Origin: Candidatus Faeciplasma pullistercoris
GTDB lineage: Bacteria; Bacillota; Clostridia; Oscillospirales; Ruminococcaceae
Assembly: GCA_018715525.1 (NCBI GenBank)
Contig: DVLL01000024.1
Location: 1-57,617 of the forward strand
Length of the DNA stretch: 57,617 nucleotides
Direction of reading: 5' to 3'
Each line of letters starts with the position of its first letter. Position 1 is the stretch's first letter. The notes beneath the pieces are model-generated. The model worked only from the letters and a program-made list of their open reading frames with translations. It did not search any database and had not been told where the DNA came from. Positions 45,225 to 47,928 of the stretch are shown here, one piece after another. A program made the translations under genes and the position numbers.

Positions 45225-46520
45225 ATGACATATACCGATCTGCTTTTTGTGTTCGGCTTGCTGCCGGCGTATATTATAATTGTGTTTGTCTGCCGTGAGA
45301 ACTGGGAAAAAAACGTGGCGTCTTTGGCTTTTTCGCTTGTATTTATCCTCTGGGCGCGTCCTGCTTATTATGCTCTTGTAGTTATCGACCTATTCGTGAT
45401 ATACGCGGCGGGCAGGTTCAAGCGTGCCGGCCGGTACAAGGCGGCGAGGGCTGCCGCTCTCGGATTTACGGGACTCACCCTGCTTCCGATGCTCTTGAGC
45501 CCCGGCGAGGGAGTAGGACAGGCTGTGGCGTCGCTCGGATTCGGGGTGTTCTGGCTTCGCTCGCTCATTTATCTTCGGGACAAGGAGTCAGAGACCAACT
45601 TTCTTAACCTTGCGGTATACCTTATATCCCTTGAGTTTATGACCGTGGCTCCGCTGATGACCTATTCCGAGATGAAAGAGCAGATATGCAAAAGGAAAGT
45701 CAGCCTTGCCATGCTTGCCGCCGGCTTCGAAAGATTTGCCTGCGGTCTTTTCGCCGTCACCGTGCTGGGCTATCCTCTTGAGAGGCTTCGCGCGGCGGCG
45801 ATGCTGTCCGGCTCGGTGCCGTATTTAAACGCGATTGTAGGCCTCGCGGCGACCGCCGTGCTCATATATACGGCTCTCTTCGGCTTTTTGTCCATGTCCG
45901 AGGGTCTTTGCCTCATAGGCGGCTTCAGAGTGCCTCTTAGGGACGCCGGCTTCCTGCCCAAATCCCTGATAATCGACCATGTAAGGTACTCGTATCCCCC
46001 GCTCTGGGATAGCCTTCGTGGGATTTTTGACGACGCGGGAGCGGCTGCTCTGCCGATAGCGGGAGCGGTTTTCTGCCTGCTCACCGGCGCGGGGATAGGC
46101 TTCGGAGCGGCTGGGCTCGCGTTCGCGGGCGTCATCGGCGCGGCTTTGGTGATGCAGATGATGTTTGAGACAAGGCGCACCGCTGCGGCGGGAGTGTTCA
46201 GCGCGCTGATGTGGCTCGCGGCGGTCATCGCCGCCACCGGAGGAAGCGTTTTTGGGATAGCGGACTGGTTTGCCGCCTTTGTCCCCGGCAAATACGAGTT
46301 TGACATAGGCTTCGAGCTGTATAACGAGCTTGGCAGGAGCCTTGTGTGGGGCTTGCTCGCCGTAGTTTATGTGTCTCCTTTGCGCATGGCGGCAGGCCGC
46401 AGGCTTAGAGAGGCCATGGGCGAAAGCGAGACGGCGTACGGAGCTGTTAGGCTTGCCGGAGTCGTCATAAGCGTGGCGGCGCTCGCGCTGTCCGCGGTAG
46501 CGATGGTAAGCGCGGTTTGA
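45225..46520 (+). CDS. Degenerate MBOAT-like membrane protein lacking the catalytic histidines
   Basis: 431 residues from the ATG at 45225 (AAAGGAAGG upstream). Polytopic. Co-linear resemblance to the MBOAT protein at 38191 is visible: LAVYLISLEFMTVAPLMTYSEMKEQI versus LAAYISMFSQLIAGPIVRYSDVAAQL; then GFERFACGLFAVTVLGYPLERL versus GVRRFIIGLSKKMLIANVLGEL; then IYTALFGFLSMSEGLCLIGGF versus [21 protein letters not shown]. The FWRRWHIS and GLWHGAAWN blocks, with both His, are absent. An active acyltransferase is therefore unlikely. Its partner gene lies 16 bases downstream. Confidence 0.7.
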   Translation: MTYTDLLFVFGLLPAYIIIVFVCRENWEKNVASLAFSLVFILWARPAYYALVVIDLFVIYAAGRFKRAGRYKAARAAALGFTGLTLLPMLLSPGEGVGQAVASLGFGVFWLRSLIYLRDKESETNFLNLAVYLISLEFMTVAPLMTYSEMKEQICKRKVSLAMLAAGFERFACGLFAVTVLGYPLERLRAAAMLSGSVPYLNAIVGLAATAVLIYTALFGFLSMSEGLCLIGGFRVPLRDAGFLPKSLIIDHVRYSYPPLWDSLRGIFDDAGAAALPIAGAVFCLLTGAGIGFGAAGLAFAGVIGAALVMQMMFETRRTAAAGVFSALMWLAAVIAATGGSVFGIADWFAAFVPGKYEFDIGFELYNELGRSLVWGLLAVVYVSPLRMAAGRRLREAMGESETAYGAVRLAGVVISVAALALSAVAMVSAV

Positions 46521-46536
46521 CGGGAGGGCAGATAAT

Positions 46537-47928
46537 ATGAATAATAAGGATATAAATAATCAGGACCACCCTCAGAAAGTGGATAAAGCGGCTTCCGTGG
46601 GCAATTCGACCAAGAAAAGACAGCCGAGGGACGCTTCTGAAAATCGCGGCGAAAAAAAATCCTCGAACTCAAGCATGAGCGAAAATAATCAGCTCGAAAA
46701 GCGGAAGCTTACGGGCATCGACCTGACGGCTCGGGACGATCTGTTCGAGCTCAAATATCACAGGGCGGTGAGCTCGGCCTACGCTCCGGCGAACAGGCTG
46801 CTTGGTGAGCTGAGCCGCGAGTCCAAGGCGGACAAGTATAATTTTCTCGGATTCGTCCTTCCCACGCTTCTGATACTTTTGCTTGCGCTCAGCTTTTCGA
46901 TAGTCGGCAGAGGAGATATCGAGGAGATGTTCGATACCAAGCTGTCGGTTGATACCGTTATGGACGGAAGCTATACCGAAATGCTAAACGATATATATGA
47001 GTCCACCCTGCCCTTTTCGGATGAGATAAGGACGCTTGGCGCCTATCTCGGCTTCTGCGATATGCCGCAAAGGGACGAGCCGTCAGATCTTCCTCCCGAG
47101 GAGCTTCCGACTCCGGACGTGACAGAGCCTGAGGTTACCGAGCCGACAGTCACAGAGCCTGAGCAGCCCGAGGTCACTACCGCTCCGACTACAGCCGAGC
47201 CGCCGGCGACAGCCGAGACTCAGACCGATATACCTGTCGAAGAGGAAGACACCTTCATAATGTACGCGAGCTCGACGGTCCATGTCAGAATAGGTCCGTC
47301 CTCCGAGGACGCTGTAATAGGCTACTACAACTCTGGAGCGGCGGTCGAGGTAATAGAGCTGCGTGACGACGGCTGGGCGGAGATAGTCTTTGACGGCATA
47401 AGGGCGTATCTGTACTCAGAGTACCTTGTCGGGGATGAGACGCATGATACTCCCGACGTCACCGCGGAGCCTATCGACCCAGACAGCACCGAGACATACC
47501 TTATGTACGCCACCGCCTCGGTAAATGTAAGGGTAGCTCCCGATTCTGAGTCAGACAGGATAGGAGGCTTCTCGGCAGGCGATGAGGTGCATGTCATCGA
47601 GATACTCGACAGCGGCTGGGCTGCGATAGTATACGGAGACGTCAAGGCTTATGTCTTTGCGGAGTACATCGGCTACGGCGACGAGAGCTCTGAGGAGGTT
47701 GTGCTTCCCGAGGAGGAAACCGGCGAGGTTACCCTGCCGGATGAGCCCGACTCCTCTCAAAACGGCGAGGAAACATCTACAGAAAGTATAAATAGTGAAG
47801 ATATTACTGATAGTATTTATGATGTTTCCGAGGAAACTACGCAGTCTGCCTCAGATCAGGCTGAAGCTGTTGTCACCGGGACTCAGGATGAGCCTGTGAT
47901 AGTCACCACTATGCCGGAGGCATACTGA
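46537..47928 (+). CDS. Membrane-anchored protein with DHHW-like N-terminus and two SH3 domains
   Basis: 463 residues. A charged cytoplasmic N-terminus (1-100) and one membrane segment (103-123) lead to a short stretch (131-175, FDTKLSVDTVMDGSYTEMLNDIYES...FSDEIRTLGAYLGF). This resembles residues about 61-102 of the DHHW protein at 39619 (FPELSLDTVMSGSFMSDFEDYS...IRDSFRTLKAVTGY). The catalytic DHHW domain is missing. Instead a Thr/Glu/Pro linker leads to two bacterial SH3 domains (240-298 and 321-379) and an acidic tail. SH3 domains of this type often bind cell-wall peptides. It is likely a wall-binding partner of the upstream MBOAT-like protein (inference). Confidence 0.8.
   Translation: MNNKDINNQDHPQKVDKAASVGNSTKKRQPRDASENRGEKKSSNSSMSENNQLEKRKLTGIDLTARDDLFELKYHRAVSSAYAPANRLLGELSRESKADKYNFLGFVLPTLLILLLALSFSIVGRGDIEEMFDTKLSVDTVMDGSYTEMLNDIYESTLPFSDEIRTLGAYLGFCDMPQRDEPSDLPPEELPTPDVTEPEVTEPTVTEPEQPEVTTAPTTAEPPATAETQTDIPVEEEDTFIMYASSTVHVRIGPSSEDAVIGYYNSGAAVEVIELRDDGWAEIVFDGIRAYLYSEYLVGDETHDTPDVTAEPIDPDSTETYLMYATASVNVRVAPDSESDRIGGFSAGDEVHVIEILDSGWAAIVYGDVKAYVFAEYIGYGDESSEEVVLPEEETGEVTLPDEPDSSQNGEETSTESINSEDITDSIYDVSEETTQSASDQAEAVVTGTQDEPVIVTTMPEAY

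Follow-up and report, generated by a model that had tools for sequence, protein, structure and literature searches.

The contig DVLL01000024.1 of Candidatus Faeciplasma pullistercoris (57,617 nt; its full length is called the window here) carries two adjacent genes, one of which encodes a protein with the predicted fold of the membrane-bound O-acyltransferases (MBOAT) and the other a membrane-anchored partner that is related to the DHHW proteins. MBOAT-SGNH relays decorate many bacterial envelope polymers. The evidence collected here tips slightly towards the view that the products of this gene pair form a pseudo-acyltransferase complex in the cell envelope, consisting of a non-catalytic docking base and a wall-directed tail, and the role of this complex is most likely structural or signalling. 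The family of the first gene is referred to as class I.

45225..46520, + strand: class I MBOAT-fold membrane protein without the catalytic His residues, 431 amino acids (intact open reading frame (ORF), AlphaFold2 model, Foldseek matches, clade support)
46537..47928, + strand: partner protein, 463 amino acids (intact ORF)

The gap between the two genes, both on the + strand, is 16 nt, and the ATG at 45225 fits as the start codon because homologues start at the same MxYxDLxF position.

Pfam leaves the MBOAT identity of the 431-residue protein unsettled, since its match to PF03062 (E=0.0028, 17.4 bits) is below the gathering cut-off of 27; 20 of 75 class I members match this profile at E≤0.01. 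The identity was settled by full-length alignments with relatives from other genera together with an AlphaFold2 model (predicted local distance difference test score (pLDDT) 84.6, predicted template modelling score (pTM) 0.84; alignment of 75 sequences). When this model was compared with the PDB using Foldseek, ranks 1-12 were all MBOATs (probability 1.00, TM-scores 0.50-0.61), and the probability dropped to 0.44 at rank 13. The top matches include 6bug (E=3.8e-5), which we take to be DltB, 8jem (titled DltB), HHAT, PORCN and MBOAT7. The protein is thus predicted to have an MBOAT fold, as an original prediction made from the sequence letters had proposed; model and structure search, either of which could have pointed to another fold, bore this out.

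The mechanism of MBOAT-SGNH relays, with its His, shuttle Tyr and SGNH Ser, has been worked out only recently; in PatA, according to passages of PMC12148441, the invariant His is required for auto-acetylation and the Tyr of the C-terminal FxYxxF motif carries the acyl group. The corresponding positions of the class I protein are listed below, together with an active pair of the same window that served as reference.

45993..45995, + strand: Y257, aligned to the first His of the catalytic block (His1; H278 of the active neighbour)
46095..46097, + strand: I291, aligned to the invariant MBOAT His (His2; H318 of the active neighbour)
46482..46520, + strand: C-terminus without the FxYxxF acyl-shuttle motif
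38191..39594, + strand: active MBOAT, reference (WRRWHIS, LWHGAAW, C-terminal FLYFRF)
39619..40770, + strand: active DHHW partner, reference

The absence of both His blocks had been noted in the original prediction and is confirmed by Y257 and I291. In 76 class I rows (distinct sequences with a complete 3' end, the window gene being counted twice with two start codons), the His1 column holds Asn in 67, and the His2 column holds Tyr in 62, Phe in seven, Leu in four, Ile in three and His in none; a first alignment-based residue comparison had used 74 class I rows. Locus L125 was too short for an ORF, and L115 and L116, which end before His2, are not in the residue counts. The active comparison MBOATs possess His1 in 40/40 and His2 in 40/40 rows; as they were selected by the letters WHG, the latter figure is true by construction and the former is independent. 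A 41st protein, the cyanobacterial L128, has WHG and was treated as active, and was left out of the residue and conservation comparisons. The FxYxxF motif, which played no part in the choice of the sets, ends all 41 WHG-bearing MBOATs versus none of the 76 class I rows. The same holds within single genomes: in 14 class I genomes, all fetched MBOATs with His2 end in FxYxxF and none without His2 does (30 loci, two of which represent one gene). One protein (L180, genome G049) reads LHG in place of WHG, keeps both His residues and FxYxxF and stands outside the WHG-based counts. Judged from sequence, the loss of the shuttle motif is a third loss, besides those of the His residues and of the catalytic domain of the partner, and one that the original prediction had missed.

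A shuttle motif may also reside in a separate small protein, as in DltX (passages of PMC12148441). No DltX-like substitute is seen near class I genes, because in 73 class I loci there is no ORF of at least 25 amino acids ending in FxYxxF; the idea of a separate shuttle protein of this kind was rejected for these loci.

On the side of the partner, the motif [DNE]HH[WF] is present in none of 73 class I partners versus 20 of the 23 active partners whose length allowed a judgement (the other 16 out of 39 had too little sequence within their loci). The three active partners without it are that of the window itself, which reads DIHW, that of L137, where the ORF reaches the edge of the locus, and that of the cyanobacterial L128. 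A Pfam scan gave no DHHW (PF14286) match in the class I partner of the window either. The matched loss in both partners with the gene order kept, which had been claimed before, is supported by these comparisons, and the proposed non-enzymatic re-use stands as the best reading.

Within the catalytic block, 32 columns are at least 90% conserved in active MBOATs and three in class I, and within residues 1-252 these numbers are 68 and 29; as the row sets differ (40 active, 76 class I), only the contrast between the two halves of the protein counts. The better conservation of the N-terminal half than of the catalytic half, as well as the retention of the whole MBOAT fold, would also suit a remnant with a function in transport or lipid handling, in which the MBOAT tunnel is a conduit or a lipid site and the partner an outer gate. 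We consider this quite improbable, there being no direct evidence for a substrate or an open tunnel.

The partner protein starts with a cytoplasmic N-terminus, followed by one membrane helix, post-anchor helices of the DHHW type, a Thr/Pro-rich linker, two SH3 domains and an acidic Thr-rich tail.

46840..46899, + strand: transmembrane helix, residues about 102-121, inside the predicted helix 80-123 (sequence and model)
46942..47049, + strand: segment common to DHHW proteins, residues 136-171 (hhalign and model)
47071..47250, + strand: Thr/Pro-rich linker, residues about 179-238 (sequence, low pLDDT)
47254..47427, + strand: SH3 domain 1 (PF08239/PF06347; block pLDDT 93-96)
47497..47670, + strand: SH3 domain 2 (PF08239, residues 328-378; weakly modelled, block pLDDT 41-79)

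The post-anchor segment is homologous to that of DHHW proteins: hhalign aligned the segments of the family partners with those of DHHW proteins over 53 columns with a probability of 97% and E=9.3e-11 (72 partners and 37 DHHW proteins, counted before identical segments were removed), and three reversed controls remained below 1%, which rules out a chance likeness. This bears out the earlier claim of a stretch shared with the DHHW protein, which the comparison could have overturned. PF14286 was also the commonest Pfam match among 58 scanned partners (those of the window, L034, L136 and L039 and 54 of the 66 others), being found in 16 of them at E≤0.05 (best 2e-5). The two of these matches with known positions cover the N-terminal part of the profile, stay under the Pfam cut-off and extend into the Thr-rich tail; for this reason, and because the window partner has no such match, the homology is based on hhalign. 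In the model of the window partner, the long membrane helix is followed by helices 138-142, 145-157 and 161-171 at a block pLDDT of 70-85.

The usual tail of class I partners is Thr-rich. In five active DHHW partners (479-559 amino acids), which come from the same family, the shared segment is closely followed by a linker rich in Thr, Ser or Pro that joins the anchor to the catalytic domain, so the simplest history would be a removal of this domain that left the linker as the tail. Such a tail could itself be a substrate: in an acyltransferase with altered chemistry, Asn and Tyr would replace the His pair, and the acceptor would be a non-SGNH one, perhaps the Thr-rich tail. This possibility is in line with the non-random replacement (Asn at His1 as counted above; Tyr or Phe at His2 in 69/76), with R157, which is invariant in class I, and with the richness of the partners in hydroxyl residues (median 15% Thr). 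We nevertheless regard it as unlikely in view of the His requirement reported for PatA in the passages cited, of the absence of the FxYxxF C-terminus from class I proteins and loci, and of the window protein, which does not even have the Asn and Tyr of its family at the His columns.

SH3 domains are found in four of the 58 partners, i.e., those of the window (two SH3_3 stretches, E=1.1e-19), of its congeners G044 and G409, and of genome G040; the match in G044 (L034) is weak and under the Pfam cut-off. The MBOATs of the SH3-bearing loci group together (support 100/97), the join of L039 with the genus of the window being flagged as a possible long-branch artefact. The SH3 domains may have been gained late in one subgroup or lost elsewhere, a late gain being simpler. 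The notion of a pair that lacks the catalytic domain and was rebuilt with two SH3 domains is therefore right for the window and fails as a general rule.

Class I is widespread. One genome per species (84,980 species) was scanned with peptide patterns from seven relatives, drawn from an alignment without the genus of the window. The scan returned 75 loci, 74 of which contain a class I gene in Bacillota (three of them fragments) and one an ordinary cyanobacterial MBOAT. Of the 74, 54 belong to Oscillospiraceae, 48 to the genus Ruminococcus, and 20 carry no family name; the hosts include R. albus 8, AR67 and KH2T6, R. bicirculans 80/3 and strain Marseille-P6503, and the clade spans more than 70 species, mostly labelled Ruminococcus. 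In the family of the window at least 11 of 146 genomes possess class I (scores fall from 431 to 315 bits at the boundary), and in the order at least six of 295, all from the same family, the other six sub-threshold matches having WHG; both figures are minimum counts, since G409 belongs to class I with a score of just 297 bits. One scan of viral contigs gave no class I relatives. The partner was found in 64 of the 65 loci in which over 1200 nt of downstream sequence were available (the exception, L096, has no partner ORF of at least 80 amino acids; the ORF in L104 has 422), and in 58 of 65 testable loci a radical-SAM gene takes the third place, so that the usual order is MBOAT, partner, radical-SAM.

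In the tree class I forms a separate clade with support 100/100, in which the window sequence stands on a long branch. In 11 pairs of relatives (some sharing loci, three with an MBOAT dS >1), the ratio of nonsynonymous to synonymous substitution rates (dN/dS) ranged over 0.07-0.18 in the MBOAT genes and 0.04-0.44 in the partner genes; these values concern relatives only, the members of the window's own genus found so far being too divergent (36% protein identity). The low ratios argue that class I genes are kept rather than decaying, and both genes appear to be under purifying selection where this could be tested. Class I is accordingly best described, from its phylogeny, as an old separate clade and not as a recently decayed local copy. 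A recent local duplication followed by decay is ruled out by the tree, the breadth of the family and the dN/dS of the relatives, and the "degenerate paralogue" of the neighbouring pair seen in the original prediction has to be abandoned (all 11 MBOAT pairs have low ratios). A decaying, functionless pair in the lineage of the window alone would agree with the long branch and with the lost Asn and Tyr; it is very improbable given that the ORFs are intact in G000, G044 and G409, all of this genus, that the first SH3 domain is modelled at high block pLDDT, and that dN/dS is low elsewhere in the family.

Two contigs of one assembly (isolate RGIG4809; L070 and L071) carry a class I trio that is 99.9% identical over 7.7 kb, representing either duplication or assembly redundancy. 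In G004:C3:768589-773071, two MBOAT genes with identical scores lie ~3 kb apart, apparently as a result of recent tandem duplication.

Several known systems resemble class I in part. The gene pair and the MBOAT fold are shared with PatA/PatB, AlgI/AlgJ, WssH/WssI and CcsH/CcsI, and the partner is like those of the PatB type in having one membrane helix, then surface helices and a flexible linker (passages of PMC12148441). In the AlphaFold model of PatA/PatB described there, the membrane helix and two surface helices of PatB contact PatA. Unlike pairs of the PatA/PatB type, class I lacks the invariant His, FxYxxF and the DHHW motif of the partner. DltB structures (8jem) are among the best structural matches of the window protein; unlike DltB/DltX/DltD, class I has neither the His nor, in 73 loci, a DltX-like ORF. 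With DHHW proteins (PF14286) the class I partners have the homologous post-anchor segment in common, but they do not possess the catalytic part and carry a Thr-rich tail or SH3 domains instead. A literature search covering titles and the beginnings of abstracts found no description of a bacterial His-less MBOAT pair; most subscription papers were not covered, and this is weak evidence of absence.

A precedent for a His-less MBOAT is HHATL (mammalian Gup1), which is eukaryotic, unlike class I. To our knowledge, no SGNH-type partner gene of HHATL is known. In HHATL the invariant His is replaced by Leu, and the protein is thought not to be an acyltransferase and is described as a negative regulator of HHAT; the passages of PMC5831804 concerned name no other MBOAT without the His. 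By analogy, class I could be a negative regulator or decoy which competes with active MBOAT/DHHW pairs for docking partners or for the donor. The post-anchor segment common to both types of partner would allow this, and 13 of 14 class I genomes do possess another MBOAT over the Pfam cut-off, and each of the 13 has at least one with WHG or LHG and FxYxxF. However, class I has its own adjacent partner, and in G074 (99% complete) it is the sole recognisable MBOAT: no PF03062 match was found at E≤1, and a search with the active window protein retrieved class I only. We therefore hold a general role in regulating the active pair, as suggested originally, to be rather unlikely, though 13 of the 14 genomes would permit it.

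In the reading that we favour, the MBOAT-fold protein would be a non-catalytic docking base in the membrane, to which the partner would bind via the membrane helix and the surface helices inherited from DHHW/SGNH acyltransferases. The tail of the partner, usually Thr-rich and equipped with SH3 domains in the subgroup of the window, would project outward and reach into or bind the cell wall, and the complex would act as a scaffold or a wall-contact sensor rather than as an enzyme. We infer the mutual binding of the two proteins, the wall contact of the tail and the scaffold or sensor role from the data above. Several points weigh against this reading. Asn and Tyr are nearly fixed at the two His columns, which could point to chemistry that persists, and passages of PMC5831804 report Asn at position 1 in active MBOATs as well. 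The structures were predicted as separate single chains, and the model of the partner is poor overall (pLDDT 62.7, pTM 0.30). According to a heading in PMC12148441, PatB does not need its first 112 residues for O-acetyltransferase activity, so the docking region may carry less weight there. Furthermore, 54 of 58 partners have no SH3 match and none of 73 has LPxTG, so that wall contact outside the SH3 subgroup is weakly supported. Finally, a scaffold role leaves the conserved radical-SAM neighbour unexplained.

If the favoured reading is true, a family without all three parts of the relay that keeps the fold, the anchor segment and the gene order would imply that the complex is useful beyond its chemistry. 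Class I would then be a natural means to separate docking from catalysis, and annotation pipelines would be warned that polymer acylation does not follow from an MBOAT gene and an adjacent partner gene alone. More broadly, and only tentatively, bacteria may have converted MBOAT-SGNH pairs, perhaps repeatedly, into conserved envelope complexes without enzymatic activity, with the docking module as a general mount for outward-facing tails; class I has lost the His along with the shuttle Tyr and all of the SGNH domain, and a second group, class II, has kept the domain but lost the DHHW motif as well as His2 and the shuttle Tyr.

Class II, which had also escaped the original prediction, comprises the 15 loci without WHG among 30 fetched with a class II profile (L141-L151, L153 and L159-L161, from genomes of the same family). 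The His1 column holds Asn in 14/15, the His2 column Phe or Tyr in 15/15, and FxYxxF is present in 0/15. The three partners tested by Pfam are DHHW proteins, and the DHHW motif is absent from 13/13. According to Pfam, the genes upstream of class II at two loci encode Competence, DNA polymerase III delta and DUF4093/Toprim proteins; the first two are presumably comEC-type and holA, respectively. The best tree places classes I and II in separate clades, but a single origin was not rejected when their union was put to the approximately unbiased test (p=0.358); two independent His losses were therefore dropped as a firm claim. Another MBOAT, L200 (G065:C57), has Cys and Phe at the His columns and no FxYxxF, and its genome also holds class I.

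Downstream of the pair, the window contains the third gene of the trio.

47928..48857, + strand: radical-SAM protein (PF04055, PF16199)

Its ATG overlaps the stop codon of the partner gene, suggesting translational coupling. MBOAT genes occupy three places in the source genome, namely those of the active protein of the window, of a protein on contig C22 with WHG and FxYxxF, and of the class I protein studied here. An HtrA gene lies divergently upstream (43400-44917), as it does in L034 (G044, same genus), where the SH3-bearing partner is followed by two genes for solute-binding proteins and the radical-SAM gene is absent within the 12 kb read. Upstream of the active MBOAT/DHHW pair, positions 36000-37292 encode an Acyltransferase (PF01553) protein, the middle part of which is zinc-ribbon-like with a weak match to PF08271.

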